Shown piece after piece: positions 611 through 8,032 of a stretch of 56,572 nt of DNA. Source of the stretch: Bacillota bacterium (GTDB lineage Bacteria; Bacillota; Sulfobacillia; JACIYH01); contig JACIYH010000008.1 of the NCBI GenBank assembly GCA_014360055.1, positions 1-56,572 on the forward strand. Reading direction: 5' to 3'. Made by a program: the position numbers and the translations under genes. Within the stretch, counting starts at the first letter, position 1. The number at the start of each line of letters is the position of its first letter. The notes under the pieces are model-generated. The model had not been told where the DNA came from and made no database searches. It was given only the letters and a program-made list of their open reading frames with translations.

Positions 611-1303
611 TTGAAGCGCCTCCCGGAGATCCTGGCCCGTCCCCTGCGCGACGTGGTGTACGAGCACCTGAAGGAGGCCATCCTGGTGGGGAAGCTCCTC
701 CCCGGGGAAAGGCTCCTGGAAGTGGAACTGGCAGAGCAGATGGGCGTGAGCCGCACCCCCGTACGCGAGGCCATGCGCCGCCTGGAGAGGGAGGGGCTGG
801 TGGTGCTGCGGCCCTTCCGGGGTGCCGAGGTGGTGCGGGTGCCCCGTGAGCGAGCCGAGCAGCTGTTCCAGGTGCGGGAGGCCCTCGAATGTCTGACCGC
901 CCGCCTGGTGGCCGCGCGGGCGGGCCCGGCCGACATCCTGCTCCTGCGTTCCATCATCGAGCAGGCCGAGGTGGCGGCGCGCAACGGCGACTACCCCGGG
1001 GTCAACGCCCTCAACCGGCGGTTCCACGGTGAACTGGCGCGCATGAGTGGCAATATCCCCCTGGTGACCCTGTTCGAGCAAATCCAGGACCACATCAACC
1101 TGCTCCGGGCCACCGCTCTCTCCCGTCCCGGTCGCCCCGAAGAGGCCATCCGCGAGCACGCCGATATCGTGGATGCCGTGGCGGCGGGCGATGCCGACCG
1201 GGCAGAGGTGCTGGTGAGCGAGCACATAAGGAGGGGCCGCCTGGCCGCCCTCGCACAAATGGAGGCGTCCGACGAAGATGTACATCGATCCGCAGAAGTG
1301 TAA
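611..1303 (+). CDS. GntR family (FadR/FCD subfamily) transcriptional regulator
   Basis: A 230-residue regulator. An N-terminal winged helix-turn-helix (about residues 12-78) contains SRTPVREA (47-54), the classic GntR recognition-helix segment. The C-terminal FCD domain (about 85-220) keeps the metal-binding histidines in FHGEL, REHAD and SEHIRRG, so a carboxylate ligand held by a metal is likely (family knowledge). The TTG start at 611 is chosen because AAAGGGGGG lies 8-10 nt upstream; the frame is open farther upstream but that part reads as unrelated sequence. Its end overlaps the start of the ferredoxin-like gene, so it is probably the first gene of the transporter operon and its regulator. 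Confidence 0.85.
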   Translation: MKRLPEILARPLRDVVYEHLKEAILVGKLLPGERLLEVELAEQMGVSRTPVREAMRRLEREGLVVLRPFRGAEVVRVPRERAEQLFQVREALECLTARLVAARAGPADILLLRSIIEQAEVAARNGDYPGVNALNRRFHGELARMSGNIPLVTLFEQIQDHINLLRATALSRPGRPEEAIREHADIVDAVAAGDADRAEVLVSEHIRRGRLAALAQMEASDEDVHRSAEV

Positions 1304-2045
1304 CGGCTGCAGCATCTGCATCCCCTATTGTCCGGCGGGGGCCATTTCCCTGGTGGAGGCGCCCGGCAGCAAGCGGGGCCGGGTGGCCGTCGTCGACCAG
1401 GAAGCCTGCCTGGAGTGCGGCAACTGCATTCACCGGGGAGTGGTGAAGTGCCCCACCTCGGCCTTCTCCGAGGATCCGGGCATTTGGGATACCGCCCGCG
1501 CCATCCGCCGCTTTTTCTCGGACCCCATGGTCAAGCACCCGGTTACCAGCGTACCGGGCCGGGGTACCGAGGAAGTGAAGACGAACGATGTCACCGGCCG
1601 GGTGAAGCGGGGCGAGGTCGGCATCGGTATCGAGATGGGGAGGCCGTGCCTGGGTACCAGCTTCGCCGAGGTGGAGAAGGTGACGCGGGCCCTGGCCCCC
1701 CTGGGGATCGCCTTCGAGGAGTGTAATCCCCTTACCCACCTCATGGATGATCGCACGCGGGGAACCTTCCCTCCCGAGGTGAAGGCCCAGCGGGTGATCT
1801 CGGCCATCATCGAGTTCACCGCCCCGGCCGCCCTGCTGCCCGACATCCTGCGCGTGCTGCGGGAGGTCGCACCCACCCTGGAGACGGTGTTCTCGCTCGA
1901 CCTCATAAGCTGCTTCGAACCGGACGGTTCCCTGCCCGTCCTCAGCGTGCTCCGTGAACTGGGGATCGAACCCCGGCCCAACGCCAAGGTGAACCTGGGC
2001 ATGGGTCGACCCCGTGCGGTTGATAAGGAGGTGGCGGCCTCGTGA
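1278..2045 (+). CDS. Ferredoxin-like 2x[4Fe-4S] protein with unknown C-terminal domain, copy 1
   Basis: A 255-residue protein. Residues 8-18 are CxxCxxCxxxCP, and 44-58 hold a second set, CxxCxxC with a longer gap before the last Cys-Pro; together they predict two [4Fe-4S] clusters. After about residue 85 comes a domain I do not recognise, with VPGRGTEE and KTNDVTGRV (92-109), then a basic RGE and EMGRP (119-123). The same motifs occur in the protein at 5823-6551. It overlaps the GntR gene upstream by 26 nt and shares a GTGA overlap with the next gene, so the three are probably co-translated. A role in electron transfer for metabolism of the transported substrate is inferred; no known enzyme is claimed. 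Confidence 0.8.
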   Translation: MYIDPQKCNGCSICIPYCPAGAISLVEAPGSKRGRVAVVDQEACLECGNCIHRGVVKCPTSAFSEDPGIWDTARAIRRFFSDPMVKHPVTSVPGRGTEEVKTNDVTGRVKRGEVGIGIEMGRPCLGTSFAEVEKVTRALAPLGIAFEECNPLTHLMDDRTRGTFPPEVKAQRVISAIIEFTAPAALLPDILRVLREVAPTLETVFSLDLISCFEPDGSLPVLSVLRELGIEPRPNAKVNLGMGRPRAVDKEVAAS

Positions 2046-2689
2046 CCCACTCCCTGCACAGGCGGGGTTCGTCCGCATCTCTGGCCAACGACTATGTGAT
2101 CCTGGTCACGCCCGCGGTGGGGTTCAATGACGAGGGTGCTCCCGACAAGCTGCGCGAGGCCCTGGAGGTGGTCCTGGAAGCGGGACCGGCGAACATCGGG
2201 TCCTACGCCACCGGCACCGTCTTTGCCGGGGCCACTCCGGAGGAGATCCGGAAGGGGCTGTGGGAGCAACCCCGGGTGCGCTGCGCCTTTGCCGGACGCG
2301 AGCAGGTGAAGCGTGTCCTCGAGGAACTCAAGAAGAAGGACCTGGGGCTTTCCGTCACGGTGAGCGGCCTCACGGACGAGGTGCTGGACCTGGCCCGGGA
2401 GGTGGGCCTGAAGCCCCACTCCATCAACCTGTCCCTGGGGGTCTGGGGCAACACCGCCGCCCTCCCCTCCGAGGACGTGCTCGAGTTCGTGACCATGTGC
2501 GGGCACGGCTTGATCTCCCGTTACCTGGTGGAGAAGGCCATCGATCTGGTCAGGCGGGGGCGCCGCACGCCCGAACAGGCGGCGCGCATGATCGCACCTC
2601 CCTGCGTGTGCGGCATCTTCAATCCGGTGCGGGCGGCGGAATTATTCCGCAAGTATGTTCCGGCGGGGGGGCGAGAGGAGCAGGAGTGA
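2042..2689 (+). CDS. Conserved protein of unknown function (MTHSLHR / CGH / CxCGIFN), copy 1
   Basis: A 215-residue soluble protein that I do not recognise. It begins MTHSLHR and has conserved blocks KPHSIN (124-129), SLGVWG (131-136), TMCGH (151-155) and CVCGIFN (188-194). Three cysteines (153, 188, 190) and His155 are shared with the paralogue at 6680-7348 and look like metal or Fe-S ligands. No signal peptide or membrane segment is seen. The GTG start overlaps the stop of the ferredoxin-like gene (GTGA), implying translational coupling and probably complex formation with it. The gene precedes the transporter binding protein by about 40 nt. Function is unknown; an enzyme or redox-linked partner acting on the imported acid is the simplest inference. 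Confidence 0.75.
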   Translation: MTHSLHRRGSSASLANDYVILVTPAVGFNDEGAPDKLREALEVVLEAGPANIGSYATGTVFAGATPEEIRKGLWEQPRVRCAFAGREQVKRVLEELKKKDLGLSVTVSGLTDEVLDLAREVGLKPHSINLSLGVWGNTAALPSEDVLEFVTMCGHGLISRYLVEKAIDLVRRGRRTPEQAARMIAPPCVCGIFNPVRAAELFRKYVPAGGREEQE

Positions 2690-2731
2690 GACGAGAGGTT
2701 CCGGCGGGTGGAAAGGCAATCTGAGGGAGGG

Positions 2732-3727
2732 ATGAACGCAGTGAGGAGACACTGGCTGGTGACCGTCGTCATGGTACTTGCCCTGGCACTGCTGGCCGGC
2801 GCGGCCTGCCAGAAGGCCCCCCAGCAGGCCAAGTACCCCACCAAGCCCATCGAGTTCGTGGTGCCCTTCAACCCGGGCGGCGGCAGCGACATCCTGGCGC
2901 GCAACATCGTGGCCGTGATCGAGGCCGAGAAGCTGCTGCCCCAGCCCGTCCAGGTGGTGAACAAGGCGGGCGGGAGTGGGGCCGTGGGGTACGGGTACCT
3001 GGCCGAGAAGAAAGGCGATCCTTACTACATCGGCACGGTGAGCTCGAGCTTCTGGACCACCCCTCTGCTGGGTGGTGCGCCCTTCAACTACACCATGTTC
3101 ACCCCGGTGGCGGGCCTGTGCTACGACAGCTACGTCCTCCTGGTGAGGCAGGACTCCAAGTTCGCCTCCCTGGAGGATGTGCTCAACGCCATGAAGGACA
3201 AGCCCGAGGGCCTCACCATAGGGGCGACCGGGGTCTCTTCTGACGACCGCGTGGTCACCTACCTGCTGGAGAAGGCAGCCAACGTCAAGTTCAAGCTGGT
3301 ACCCTTCCAGAGCGGCGGTGAAGTGATGACCGCCCTGCTGGGCGGGCACATCGACGTGGCCTGGGCCAACCCCGGCGAAGCCAGGGGACAGCTGGATGCC
3401 AAGCAGGCGCGCGGGCTGGCGGTGGCCGCCGAGAAGCGGCTGGAAGGCCTGCCGGACGTGCCCACCTTCAACGAGAAGGGTATCAATCTGGTGTTCCGGC
3501 AGTTGCGGGGCGTGGTGATGCCGGCGGGAGCGCCTGAGGACGCCGTTAAGGTGATGGAAGAGGTCCTCAAGAAGGTGTCCGAAAGCCCCAAGTGGAAGAC
3601 CGACTACGTCAAGAGGAACGACCTGGTGCCCACCTTCCTGGGGGCGGCCGAATTCAAGACCGCCATCGAGCAGATGAACAACACCTACAAGCAGGTGTTC
3701 GAAGAGCTGGGCGTGCTCAAGAAGTGA
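2732..3727 (+). CDS. tctC: TctC-family extracytoplasmic solute-binding lipoprotein
   Basis: Binding protein of a tripartite tricarboxylate transporter (TTT, Bug/TctC family), 331 residues. The start at 2732 follows GAGGGAGGG; an in-frame ATG 24 nt earlier would give a poor leader. The N terminus is a lipoprotein signal: basic residues, a hydrophobic core and a lipobox with Cys26 (LLAGAAC). Then come YPTKPIEFVVPFNPGGGSDILAR-type family motifs, a GG(S/T)GAVGY loop, and the PAGAPEDAVK segment typical of TctC C-terminal domains. It should be anchored outside the membrane and deliver a carboxylate to TctAB. The substrate cannot be read from sequence. A strong hairpin follows the gene. Confidence 0.9.
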   Translation: MNAVRRHWLVTVVMVLALALLAGAACQKAPQQAKYPTKPIEFVVPFNPGGGSDILARNIVAVIEAEKLLPQPVQVVNKAGGSGAVGYGYLAEKKGDPYYIGTVSSSFWTTPLLGGAPFNYTMFTPVAGLCYDSYVLLVRQDSKFASLEDVLNAMKDKPEGLTIGATGVSSDDRVVTYLLEKAANVKFKLVPFQSGGEVMTALLGGHIDVAWANPGEARGQLDAKQARGLAVAAEKRLEGLPDVPTFNEKGINLVFRQLRGVVMPAGAPEDAVKVMEEVLKKVSESPKWKTDYVKRNDLVPTFLGAAEFKTAIEQMNNTYKQVFEELGVLKK

Positions 3728-3737
3728 CGTGTGGGTA

Positions 3738-3787
3738 GGGGCGGGATGCCTCCGGCGGCCGCGCGTCGCCGGGCGGCGTCCCGCCCC
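3738..3787 (+). other. 13-bp intercistronic stem-loop between tctC and tctB
   Basis: Bases 3738-3750 pair with 3775-3787 over 13 bp with a single G-T wobble (GGGGCGGGATGCC against GGCGTCCCGCCCC), and the loop itself can form an inner GC-rich stem. No T-run follows, so it is unlikely to be a full terminator. In solute-binding-protein operons such hairpins often protect the upstream message or attenuate downstream expression; that role is inferred. Confidence 0.55.
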
Positions 3788-3812
3788 CACTCCCGGCGGA
3801 GGTGGTGGCGAG

Positions 3813-4262
3813 ATGATTACGGCAGAGGTGGTGGGGGGTCTGGTGGTGCTGGGCCTGGCCCTCTTCACAGGGGCGCAGGCCGCCTCCATGCCCTACCTGG
3901 TTGAGCGGGTGCCCGGTCCTGGCTTTGCCCCCCTCTGGTCAGCCGCCCTGATGGCCATCTGCGGGCTGGGTATCCTGGCGGAAGTGTTGCGGGCTAAACG
4001 CGGACGGGAGCCCTTCGTGAGCGGGCCGGGGGTGTTGCGGGTGCCCGTGATGGTGGGCGTGATGGGCGCCGGGGTGGGACTGGCCCCTTACCTGGGCATG
4101 CGCCTGTGCTGCGGTCTGGTGACCCTGGGCCTGGCCCTGGCCATGGGTGAACGCCGGCTGGTGCTCATCCTCCCGGCCGCGGTGGGGGCCGTGCTGGCGG
4201 TGCATTTGGTGTTCGGGTACTGGCTGCAGGTTCCCTTCCCGCGCGGGCTCGTGGGCTGGTAG
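3813..4262 (+). CDS. tctB: TctB-family small membrane subunit of TTT transporter
   Basis: A 149-residue integral membrane protein with about four hydrophobic segments (near residues 5-20, 40-57, 75-110 in two helices, 115-135). The motif PGPGFAPLW just after the first helix matches the conserved G(P)GFxP region of TctB proteins. The ATG at 3813 follows GGAGGTGG; the frame is open 84 nt further upstream but that stretch is the intercistronic hairpin. TctB is the small, poorly conserved subunit that assembles with TctA to form the permease. Its location between tctC and tctA is the usual order and supports the call. Confidence 0.85.
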   Translation: MITAEVVGGLVVLGLALFTGAQAASMPYLVERVPGPGFAPLWSAALMAICGLGILAEVLRAKRGREPFVSGPGVLRVPVMVGVMGAGVGLAPYLGMRLCCGLVTLGLALAMGERRLVLILPAAVGAVLAVHLVFGYWLQVPFPRGLVGW

Positions 4263-4276
4263 AAAGGGGGCTGCGC

Positions 4277-5785
4277 GTGGACACGCTTTCCAACCTGCTT
4301 ATGGGCTTCTCCGTGGCCCTCACCCCCGTGAACCTGCTCTTCTGCCTGTTGGGGGTTGTCATGGGCACCCTGATCGGTGCCCTGCCCGGCATCGGGCCCT
4401 CGGCCGGGGTGGCCATCCTGTTGCCGGTCACCTTTGGTATGAGCCCGGTGACCTCCATCATCATGCTGTGCGGGATCTACTACGGGGCCATGTACGGCGG
4501 TACCATCACCTCGGTGCTCATCAACGTGCCCGGTGAATCGTCCTCGGTGATGACGGCCGTGGACGGGTACCAGATGGCCCGCAAGGGACGCGCGGGCGCC
4601 GCCCTGGGCATCGCCGCCATCGGTTCCTTCCTGGCCGGTACCGGGGGCGTGGTGATCTTCACCTTCCTGGCTCCGCTCATTGCCCGCTTCGCCCTCTCCT
4701 TCGGGCCGCCCGAGTACTTCGCCCTCATGATACTGGGCCTCACCACCCTGAGCGGGCTCACCGGTCGCTCCATGTGGAAGAGCCTGGCGGCCGCCGCTTT
4801 CGGCCTCATGCTTTCCTTCGTGGGTATGGACATCGTGACGGGAGTGGCCCGTTTCACCTTCCACAGACCCGACCTGCTCAGCGGCGTGGACTTCCTCCCC
4901 GTGGCCATCGGGCTTTTCGGGGTGGGAGAGGTGCTCGCGAGTGCCGAAAGCCCGGCGGAACTGGAGATCACCCGTGCCGACCTATCCCTGCGCAAGGTGT
5001 TCCCCACCATGGCCGACTGGGTGAGGAGCCGCCGGTCCATCCTGAGGGGCGGGGTGATCGGGTTCCTCATCGGGTCCCTGCCCGGCGCCGGTGCCACCAT
5101 GGCCTCCTTCATCTCGTACGCGGTGGAGAAGAAGTCCTCCCGTCACCCGGAGGAGTTTGGCCAGGGCGCCATCGAAGGCGTGGCGGGTCCGGAGTCAGCC
5201 AACAACTCGGCCAGTGTGGGGGCCCTGGTGCCCCTGCTCACCCTGGGCGTGCCCGGCTCGGCCACCACGGCCGTCATGATGGGCGCCCTGATGATGTACG
5301 GACTGCACCCGGGTCCCCTGCTCTTCCAGAAGAACCCCGACTTCGTGTGGGGCCTGGTGGCCAGCATGTACATCGGGAACGTGCTGCTGGTGATCCTGAA
5401 CATCGCCTTCATCCCCGCCTTCGTCAACGTCCTCCGCATCCCGCAGCGGATCCTGTCACCGCTCATCGTGGTGTTCTGCATGGTGGGTGCCTACACCCTT
5501 GACAACAACCTGTTTGACGTGTGGCTCATGCTGCTCTTCGGCGTGCTGGGCTACCTCATGAAGAAGCTGGACTACCCGCCCGCCCCCCTGGTGCTGGCCC
5601 TGGTGCTGGGGAATCTGGTGGAGACCAGCCTGCGCCAGTCCCTGATCATCTCGGGGGGGAGCATGGCCATCTTTGTGACACGGCCCATCAGCGCGGTGTT
5701 GCTGGCCATCGCCGCCGCCGTGCTCCTGGCCCCGGCCCTCAGGTCGCTGGGCCGGGTGATCCGGGTGCGGGCGAGCCGCGCCTGA
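4277..5785 (+). CDS. tctA: TctA-family large permease subunit of TTT transporter
   Basis: A 502-residue polytopic membrane protein, the normal length for TctA. It contains the family glycine motifs GALPGIGPSAGVAILLPVTF near residue 40, YYGAMYGG(T)ITS near 75, and a repeated pseudo-symmetric element GSLPGAGATMASF near 270 followed by GPESANNSA and LTLGVPGSATTAVMMG. The GTG start is 6 nt after AAGGGGG. It couples ion entry to carboxylate uptake with TctB and TctC (family knowledge). It is the last transporter gene, and 37 nt later the second ferredoxin-like gene begins on the same strand. Confidence 0.93.
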   Translation: MDTLSNLLMGFSVALTPVNLLFCLLGVVMGTLIGALPGIGPSAGVAILLPVTFGMSPVTSIIMLCGIYYGAMYGGTITSVLINVPGESSSVMTAVDGYQMARKGRAGAALGIAAIGSFLAGTGGVVIFTFLAPLIARFALSFGPPEYFALMILGLTTLSGLTGRSMWKSLAAAAFGLMLSFVGMDIVTGVARFTFHRPDLLSGVDFLPVAIGLFGVGEVLASAESPAELEITRADLSLRKVFPTMADWVRSRRSILRGGVIGFLIGSLPGAGATMASFISYAVEKKSSRHPEEFGQGAIEGVAGPESANNSASVGALVPLLTLGVPGSATTAVMMGALMMYGLHPGPLLFQKNPDFVWGLVASMYIGNVLLVILNIAFIPAFVNVLRIPQRILSPLIVVFCMVGAYTLDNNLFDVWLMLLFGVLGYLMKKLDYPPAPLVLALVLGNLVETSLRQSLIISGGSMAIFVTRPISAVLLAIAAAVLLAPALRSLGRVIRVRASRA

Positions 5786-5822
5786 GCCCTCGGGCGGAGG
5801 GATCGTAGGAGGTTGCGCGCAA

Positions 5823-6551
5823 TTGGTCACAGTCAACGATCATTGTAACGGCTGTGGAGTGTGCGTTCCTTACTGTCCGGTGGGAGCGCTCAGCGTGGAC
5901 GCCGGCCGGAAGAGGGCGGTGGTGGACGGGAGCCTGTGCACTGACTGTTACGTGTGCATCCGTCACGCCTGTGCCCGCAAGGCCCTCGAGCCCGGTCCCC
6001 TACCTGAGTTCATAGATGTGTTCCGCCACCTGCTCTCGGACCCCACGGAAACCATGGCCGAGACGGGCGTCCCGGGCCGCGGTACGGAGGAATCCAAGAC
6101 CAACGATGTGACCGGCCGGGTGCGGCGGGGCGAGTTCGGCCTCTGCATCGACATGGGGCGGCCGGGCATCGGGGTGAGGCTGCGGGACGTGGACAGGGTG
6201 TCCCGGGCGGTGGTGGCGGCCGGGCTCAGGCTGGAGCCCCCCCAGGTGAGTCCCCTGGGGATGGTGGTGGAGGACCCCGAGACGGGCAGGTTACGGCAGG
6301 ACGTGCTGGACCAGCACCTGCTCTCCATCATCATCGAGGGAAAAGCCCCTCTTGATCGGCTGGAGCCGGTGCTACAGGCCCTCCGTGAGGTGGAGTCCCG
6401 GGTCGATACGGTTTTCTCGGTGGGGCTGGTGATGCGGGCCGACGAAGGTCTTTCCCCGCGCCTGCGGGAGGTGCTGGATCGCCTGGGGATCCCCTACCCG
6501 TTCCGGGCCAAGGTGAACGTGGGACTGGGGCGTCCCCTGGCGGAAGGCTGA
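5823..6551 (+). CDS. Ferredoxin-like 2x[4Fe-4S] protein with unknown C-terminal domain, copy 2
   Basis: A 242-residue paralogue of the protein at 1278-2045. Cys8, 11, 14 and 18 form a standard [4Fe-4S] motif; Cys39, 42, 45 and 50 form a second with a four-residue gap before the last Cys, differing from copy 1. The shared domain follows, with VPGRGTEE, KTNDVTGRV (92-99 region) and DMGRP. The TTG start at 5823 is supported by AGGAGG at 5808-5813. The two copies are clearly divergent, so this is an old duplication rather than a recent tandem repeat. It probably pairs with the next gene as copy 1 does. Function unknown; electron transfer is inferred from the clusters. Confidence 0.78.
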   Translation: MVTVNDHCNGCGVCVPYCPVGALSVDAGRKRAVVDGSLCTDCYVCIRHACARKALEPGPLPEFIDVFRHLLSDPTETMAETGVPGRGTEESKTNDVTGRVRRGEFGLCIDMGRPGIGVRLRDVDRVSRAVVAAGLRLEPPQVSPLGMVVEDPETGRLRQDVLDQHLLSIIIEGKAPLDRLEPVLQALREVESRVDTVFSVGLVMRADEGLSPRLREVLDRLGIPYPFRAKVNVGLGRPLAEG

Positions 6552-6552
6552 C

Positions 6553-6621
6553 CCGCCCCGGTGGCGGCGGGCGCCGTGCGGGTGACATCCTCCCGCGCGC
6601 CCGGACCGCCCCGGTGGCGGC
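6553..6621. repeat. Pair of 16-bp perfect direct repeats, each able to fold
   Basis: CCGCCCCGGTGGCGGC occurs at 6553-6568 and again, unchanged, at 6606-6621, 53 bp apart, in the 128-bp gap between the second ferredoxin-like gene and its partner. Each copy contains a CCGCC/GGCGG inverted repeat. They may form two small hairpins in the message or be binding sites; no function can be assigned. Confidence 0.5.
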
Positions 6622-6679
6622 CCACCTGGGCTGCAGGCACTGACGACTTACCCTGCGTCGTGGAAGGGAGAGAGGGGAA

Positions 6680-7348
6680 TTGACGCACAGTCTGCACCGC
6701 ATTGGCGACCGCCGCTTCATGGATGAGGATTTCGTCTGGTTGGCCTACCAGGCCAAGGGGATCAACGACGACGATTTCCCGCGCAAGGCCCGGGAGGTGC
6801 TGGAGGCGGCCGAGGAAGCCGGCTGCACCAACTGGGGCGACGTCAAGGCCGGGTGTGTCCTCGACCTGGATCCCGCCCAGATAAAGGCCGGACTGGGACA
6901 GACCTCCCGCATCCGCGGAGTGTTCACCTCCCGCCAGCAGGTGGTCTCCTTCCTGCGTCTCCTGCGGGAAAAGGATGTGGGGCTGTCGCTGGTGGTGAGC
7001 GGCCTGCTGGACGAGGTGCTGGCCGCCTGCGACGAGGCAGGTGTGAAGCCGCACACCATCAACTTCTCGCTGGGGGTGTGGGGCAGGAAGGAGTTGCTGC
7101 CCTCGCCCCAGGTGCTGGCCATCACCACCATGTGCGGCCACCACATGATTGCCTCCCGGCTGGTGGAGAAGACCATCGAGGACGTCAGGCGCGGCAAGGT
7201 GAAACCTGCCGCCGCGGCCAGGCGCCTGGCCCGCATGTGCCCCTGCGGCATCTTCAACCACGAGCGGGCGGCACGCCTCCTGGAAGCCTTTGCGGCGGAG
7301 GCGGAGGCCCCCCAGCCGGCGGCGGGAACGGGAGCCGGGGCCGATTGA
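6680..7348 (+). CDS. Conserved protein of unknown function (MTHSLHR / CGH / CxCGIFN), copy 2
   Basis: A 222-residue paralogue of the protein at 2042-2689, colinear within one residue over the core. Shared blocks are MTHSLHR (1-7), SGL-DEVL (107-114), KPHTIN (123-128), SLGVWG (130-135), TMCGH (150-154) and CPCGIFN (187-193); Cys152, 187 and 189 match the conserved cysteines of copy 1. The last 20 residues are Ala/Gly-rich and unique. The TTG start follows a long purine run ending GAGAGGGG. Unlike copy 1 it is separated from its ferredoxin partner by 128 nt holding a 16-bp repeat pair. Function unknown; invariant Cys and His suggest metal or Fe-S binding. Confidence 0.75.
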   Translation: MTHSLHRIGDRRFMDEDFVWLAYQAKGINDDDFPRKAREVLEAAEEAGCTNWGDVKAGCVLDLDPAQIKAGLGQTSRIRGVFTSRQQVVSFLRLLREKDVGLSLVVSGLLDEVLAACDEAGVKPHTINFSLGVWGRKELLPSPQVLAITTMCGHHMIASRLVEKTIEDVRRGKVKPAAAARRLARMCPCGIFNHERAARLLEAFAAEAEAPQPAAGTGAGAD

Positions 7349-7360
7349 GCGCATGGGGAT

Positions 7361-8032
7361 TCAGTAACCTGGCCGACCGCCCAGCACGTTGGCGCGGGCG
7401 TGCTCGATGTGTGCGGAAATGGCCCTGGCCGCCCCCTCCGCGTCGCGGGCGGCCAGGGCCCGGTAGACCTGGCGGTGTTCTTCCAGGGCCCGTTGCAACC
7501 TCCCCGGTACCCGCAGGGAGGCTGCCCGGGCCTGCTGTACATAGTATACGGCCCCTCCCAGGGCGAGCTTGAGGGGCCGGCTGCGGGATGCATTCACGAT
7601 CAACTGGTGGAATCTGGCGTCCAGGCGGGTGACCTGTTCCACGTCCTGGCGGGCAGTGTAAAACTCCATCAGGTCGACGATCTCGCCCAATTCGGCCAGT
7701 TCCTGGTCAGTCATGTGCTGGGCGGCCCAGCGGGCGGCCAGGGCCTCCAGCACCGACCGGATGGTGAAGATGTCGTCCACTTCTGAGGGCGTGATCCCCT
7801 CCACCACCACGCCGCGGTTGGGGAGGGTGCGTACCAGCCCTTCTGCTTCCAGTGCCTGCAGGGCTTCCCTGACCGGAGTGCGGCTGACGCCGAGCTCTTC
7901 GGCCACGCGGGCCGCCAGCAACACTTCCCCCGGCTGGTACCTGCCGGAGACGATCGCCTCTCTCAGTCGGGCGAGCACCTGGCTCTTCAGGGAGACGGGT
8001 GCGCCTTCCGGTGCGTCCAGTGACTCGGCCAC
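7361..8032 (-). CDS. GntR family (FCD subfamily) transcriptional regulator
   Basis: A 223-residue regulator convergent with the transporter operon, 12 bp after its last gene. Winged HTH at about residues 14-80 with SRTPVREALQ; FCD domain behind it with DARFHQL, LEEHRQV and SAHIEH supplying the expected Asp/His metal ligands. The GTG start at 8032 follows TGGAGG, which overlaps the stop of a possible short upstream frame. It differs from the regulator at 611-1303, so two FCD regulators bracket the island. Its own promoter (8233-8262) contains three 8-bp iterations that could be its operator. Target and effector are inferred to be the neighbouring transporter genes and their substrate. Confidence 0.86.
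   Translation of the reverse strand: MAESLDAPEGAPVSLKSQVLARLREAIVSGRYQPGEVLLAARVAEELGVSRTPVREALQALEAEGLVRTLPNRGVVVEGITPSEVDDIFTIRSVLEALAARWAAQHMTDQELAELGEIVDLMEFYTARQDVEQVTRLDARFHQLIVNASRSRPLKLALGGAVYYVQQARAASLRVPGRLQRALEEHRQVYRALAARDAEGAARAISAHIEHARANVLGGRPGY

Follow-up and report, generated by a model that had tools for sequence, protein, structure and literature searches.

The proteins designated X and F, the latter carrying a ferredoxin domain, were found to be encoded by an obligate gene pair (F-X) that co-occurs and co-evolves, and this pairing is a stronger finding than the conserved cysteine/histidine motif of X itself. As the partner gene is obligate, the F-X pair, not X alone, was taken as the unit of function. 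X is an unnamed protein family, present mainly in anaerobic bacteria.

Gene cluster and distribution of the F-X pair

The window, i.e. the whole stretch of DNA analysed (56,572 nucleotides), starts with a compact catabolic cluster in the order GntR-F1-X1-TctC-TctB-TctA-F2-X2, followed by a convergent second GntR gene (Table 1). One TctCBA transporter is thus flanked by two distinct F-X pairs in one operon (window 1278-7348). The first regulator gene and F1 share 26 bases. The GTGA overlap between the ferredoxin-like gene and X1, given in a preliminary description of this DNA, is present in the sequence, with the start codon GTG of X1 at 2042-2044 and the stop codon TGA of F1 at 2043-2045.

Table 1. 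Positions of the genes and motifs of the F-X cluster in the window
Feature	Position	Strand	Evidence
GntR/FCD-family transcription regulator	614..1303 (start approximate)	+	Pfam GntR 4.5e-19, FCD 4.7e-32
F1, two-[4Fe-4S] ferredoxin domain and ~180-aa C-terminal domain	1278..2045	+	Fer4 hits
X1, 215 aa, GTG start inside F1 stop (GTGA)	2042..2689	+	ORF, alignment, homologues
X1 MTHSLHR motif (H3, L5, H6, R7)	2042..2062	+	R7 91/91, H3 87/91, H6 89/91
X1 C153-G154-H155	2498..2506 (C153 2498-2500, H155 2504-2506)	+	91/91
X1 C188-x-C190	2603..2611 (C188 2603-2605, C190 2609-2611)	+	91/91
TctC, substrate-binding protein, tripartite tricarboxylate-type transporter	2708..3727	+	Pfam TctC 5e-35
TctB, small membrane subunit	3729..4262	+	Pfam TctB 1e-13
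TctA, large membrane subunit	4277..5785	+	Pfam TctA 2e-173
F2, second partner protein, 42% identity to F1	5823..6551	+	Fer4 hits, alignment
X2, second X protein, 222 aa, TTG start	6680..7348	+	ORF, alignment to X1
Second GntR/FCD regulator, convergent with X2, closes the cluster	7361..8032	-	Pfam FCD 1e-29, GntR 4e-18

Four X genes were detected in the genome of the window, two of them on another contig (C98), and every occurrence of the C-terminal domain of F in this genome was beside X. Eleven further X loci were found in other species (mostly Bacillota and one Terriglobia MAG). X was present in 26 of the 398 genomes drawn from the phylum, in 22 of the 154 genomes of the class and in 4 of the 297 genomes from the phylum to which the Terriglobia locus belongs. 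F was detected in 25 of the 398 genomes, and each of these also has X; in the one remaining X-positive genome, X is a fragment at the edge of a contig, accompanied by a partial F. Up to eight copies were counted for each gene (eight F genes in one complete genome and eight X genes in another genome). No F or X relatives were found in the plasmid records searched.

In wide loci, 89 X genes were called. F lies immediately upstream of 78 of these, on the same strand, and the remaining ones were mostly at contig ends or, in a few cases, in the reversed order (X then F). The two genes overlap or are separated by 20 bases or fewer in 65 of these 78 pairs, with a four-base overlap in 16. The correlation between the distance matrices of F and X (r=0.78; permutation maximum 0.13) is partly contributed by shared ancestry.

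Conserved residues, family and fold of X

X1 and X2 share 50% identity over 202 aa (E 1e-60) and, as previously noted, both begin with the same seven residues including two histidines (MTHSLHR). Since two copies at this identity constitute little proof, homologues were gathered, and 91 distinct sequences with 34-64% identity to X1 were aligned. Only 11 columns were invariant: M1 (start codons being read as M), R7, G102, S104, G136, M152, C153, G154, H155, C188 and C190. Three of the four cysteines and one of the four histidines of X1 are therefore invariant, and these residues account for 4 of the 11 columns (hypergeometric P of 2e-4, with phylogeny ignored).

The core of C153, H155, C188 and C190, proposed earlier from the comparison of X1 and X2, was thus retained in all 91 members, and its numbering agreed with the codons. 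Its flanks, described as varying, are not simply variable, as D17, N29, G53, G109, H126, N194 and R197 were kept in 94-99% of the members. H3 and H6, also expected to be invariant, were nearly so: H3 is replaced by N in three members and by T in one, and H6 by Y or F in two. Their suggested part in the active site is accordingly weakened by these replacements, by the low confidence of the modelled N-terminus (mean pLDDT of 67 for the first ten residues, below the rest of the model) and by a mature N-terminus that would not be His. The idea that X may be a new metalloprotein is supported, as a hypothesis, by the invariant Cys/His core, the unnamed family and the ferredoxin partner. In the N-terminal-His copper proteins (LPMO-like His brace), the mature N-terminal residue is His. 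Such a protein was considered for X and rejected, because the His residues of MTHSLHR are not at position 1 or 2 and 4 of the 91 members have N or T in place of H3.

No consistent match to X was obtained in Pfam, NCBIfam, PADLOC or PHROGs. When the 91 members were scanned with Pfam and NCBIfam, no family was matched by more than eight of them, and those matches were weak. Sequence and profile searches of the PDB gave no credible relative, the best profile match being a 24-residue stretch of XPA (E 0.006). The assignment of X as methanogenesis marker protein 8 (TIGR03275/DUF2099) was tempting, as the same family was named by two libraries, but it was dropped because only one or two of the 91 members matched (one member at E 0.0099 with NCBIfam; two, best E 0.021, with Pfam), and none reached the cut-offs of 232.7 bits (TIGR03275) and 25 bits (PF09872). 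The match was treated as chance because many families without any relation to it scored about as strongly in that scan; matches of similar strength were also seen elsewhere in genomes, at unrelated sites. Recoding of X, considered on account of in-frame TAG codons reported in a genome search, was likewise discarded, the inspected TAGs being natural stops that end X.

The AlphaFold2 model of X, built with 17 sequences (mean pLDDT 89, pTM 0.86), has an alpha-beta part at residues 18-120, after which comes a helical part carrying the Cys motifs. No match at E<=0.001 was returned by Foldseek for this model against the PDB and a viral library. In the model, the CGH motif (153-155) lies just before a helix at 160-171, and a second helix, at 177-184, ends just before the CxC motif (188-190); as five residues link these helices, the two motifs should meet through an antiparallel hairpin. 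C153/H155 and C188/C190 are thus predicted, from the secondary structure of the model, to be close in space. A SHOCT-like helical hairpin model was weakly matched by 8 of the 91 members, in line with a helical hairpin in X. In residues 18-120 of X, as in the C-terminal domain of F, the strand and helix order is similar to that of the PII/ACT/CutA-type ferredoxin-like alpha-beta fold, and PII-like proteins are among the weak Foldseek look-alikes of both (for X at E 0.1-1). However, X differs from this fold in having no match at E<=0.001 and in its added helical C-terminal part with the Cys motifs.

Partner protein F, operon context and proposed function

The N-terminal ~65 aa of F match Fer4 and Fer4_7 above cut-off, as expected of a bacterial 2[4Fe-4S] ferredoxin, with all eight cluster cysteines (C8, C11, C14, C18 and C44, C47, C50, C58 in F1). 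All eight were kept in 84 of 84 F sequences, which indicates strict selection on the clusters. Unlike such a ferredoxin, F has an extra ~180-aa C-terminal domain, which in the genomes searched did not occur away from X and gave no match in Pfam. F is a new architecture built on a known ferredoxin domain. The C-terminal domain of F1 shows the pattern GRGTEEVKTND...GRP...E179...K237, and its invariant residues in the 84 sequences are G94-R95-G96, E99, K101, N103, G121-R122, P151, G162, E179, K237 and G243. Residues 74-255 of F1 (window 1497-2042) and residues 1-142 of X1 are alike in secondary-structure order and in end motifs (on visual inspection, RG[ST] close to the start and N-L-x-x-G at the end). 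Homology of these two domains, as in a pseudo-symmetric complex, was rejected, since the profile-profile score of 25.3 was below those of a reversed control (26.2) and the best of 300 shuffles (27.3).

TTT/TRAP carboxylate transporters were scored in at least 48 of the 76 F-X operons, a lower bound because the Tct genes of the window were lost to overlapping antisense ORFs. AOR, KOR, FAD/NAD reductase or mini-CODH-like genes were scored in 22 of the 76, and neither kind of gene in 15, including the window, which does have Tct genes. Other recurrent neighbours are GntR regulators, FAA hydrolase, M29-like proteins and dehydrogenases of unrelated families (3-hydroxyisobutyrate/GarR type, Ldh2-like, PdxA, DUF1932-like and zinc alcohol dehydrogenase); the identities were assigned partly by eye (KOR, Ldh2, TRAP and DUF1932). 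The neighbouring enzymes are diverse and do not indicate a single substrate; their change between operons while F-X stays agrees with a type of enzyme that has adapted to several substrates. In 12 of the 76 operons there are two or more F-X pairs, which may point to successive steps or to enzymes that each act on one isomer. A literature search on the F-X gene neighbourhood returned nothing, and one on a possible link to 6-hydroxynicotinate reductase gave no supporting paper.

The reading preferred here, whose chances of being right are put at about even, is that F-X would be an obligate two-subunit, ferredoxin-linked oxidoreductase acting on imported carboxylates. F and X would form one complex, in which X would be the metal-bearing, probably catalytic subunit. 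C153, C188 and C190, together with H155, at both ends of the alpha-hairpin would hold a metal centre, the likeliest candidate for which is an Fe-S cluster in which one site is open or bound by His, and the two [4Fe-4S] clusters of F would wire this centre to low-potential electron carriers. Because the two F-X pairs of the window flank a TctCBA importer under GntR control, their most likely substrate would be an imported organic acid, perhaps handled in two steps or as two isomers. Two-component ferredoxin-linked Fe-S oxidoreductases consist of a dedicated ferredoxin-type subunit and a small subunit with conserved cysteines. F-X resembles them by analogy, as such a subunit pair in catabolic operons with low-potential enzymes, but no relative of X, by sequence or by fold, was found among the families searched.

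Hydro-lyases use a three-Cys [4Fe-4S] cluster as a Lewis acid, and the three invariant cysteines of X may be read in the same way, F-X then being a non-redox Fe-S (de)hydratase or isomerase, with the ferredoxin domain of F serving only to repair or protect the cluster. The many hydroxy-acid dehydrogenases of the operons (GarR-, Ldh2-, PdxA- and DUF1932-like) could be placed before or after a dehydratase. This reading is considered unlikely, as the complete conservation of the F cysteines and the recurrent association with AOR, KOR and FAD/NAD reductase point to a steady electron flow, and no similarity of X to known hydro-lyases was seen in the Pfam and NCBIfam scans. The Cys3 and His site also fits zinc, judged from its residues, the CxH...CxC arrangement being compatible with Zn(Cys3His). 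X with a structural or catalytic zinc could be a hydrolase, lyase or sensor beside an independent, merely co-transcribed ferredoxin, and no fold match names the chemistry of X; but F and X are not found apart and co-evolve, unlike a casual ferredoxin and its neighbour, and the zinc reading is regarded as highly improbable.

It is also quite improbable that F-X, rather than being an enzyme for an imported substrate, serves as an activation or electron-delivery accessory of the adjacent AOR, CODH-like and KOR proteins. F-X does adjoin AOR and mini-CODH genes, and every mini-CODH-like gene of the class search lies beside it, but 54 of the 76 operons are without low-potential enzymes, and the 12 operons with two or more distinct pairs are better suited to substrate-specific enzymes than to a generic factor. 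A wider form of the oxidoreductase proposal, which is put forward tentatively as a possibility short of even chances, is that F-X may be a previously undescribed, ferredoxin-driven enzyme class with a new three-Cys metal centre and a new fold, duplicated (up to eight copies per genome) for different carboxylates, with mini-CODH (clade-G CooS-like) proteins as accessory electron modules in some operons. If the proposal is true, anaerobic carboxylate catabolism in Bacillota and some Acidobacteriota would repeatedly make use of a redox enzyme from an unnamed family. With only two genes, F-X is easy to express and test.

Truncated CODH-like genes and other neighbours

In several operons, one of them on contig C98 of the window's own genome, the gene immediately upstream of F encodes a truncated CODH-like protein of about 420-530 aa. 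Such genes were located beside F-X at L016:9301-10845 (the C98 locus), L050, L052, L060, L085, L103, L115, L137, L138 and L139. In an unbiased search of the 154 genomes of the class with a mini-CODH query, five genes of this type were found, all within about 3 kb of X; two further short frames, both in one genome (G736), extend to the ends of contigs and resemble fragments of ordinary CODH. By comparison with solved CODHs, the cysteines of the catalytic-cluster region are lost in L052, L060, L115 and L138, and the N-terminal cluster motif is kept, so that the members form a series from near-complete to degenerate CODH. The degenerate members suggest an electron-transfer role in those operons. 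Mini-CODH (mini-CooS) proteins have been assigned to CODH clade G (PMC8776680), and clades G and H were left out of a recent survey of CODH genomic context (PMC13056359). F-X would, if the association holds, provide a consistent genomic context for these proteins.

Two single loci contain further genes. At L006:5997-10876, an operon with F-X and AOR runs into genes for a fumarate-reductase-like flavoprotein, MutL, AtuA (PF07287) and DUF4387, which is another uncharacterised catabolic module. At L065:9800-10585, a ComA-like gene (phosphosulfolactate synthase family) is present in an operon with F-X and TTT, possibly a link to sulfonates.
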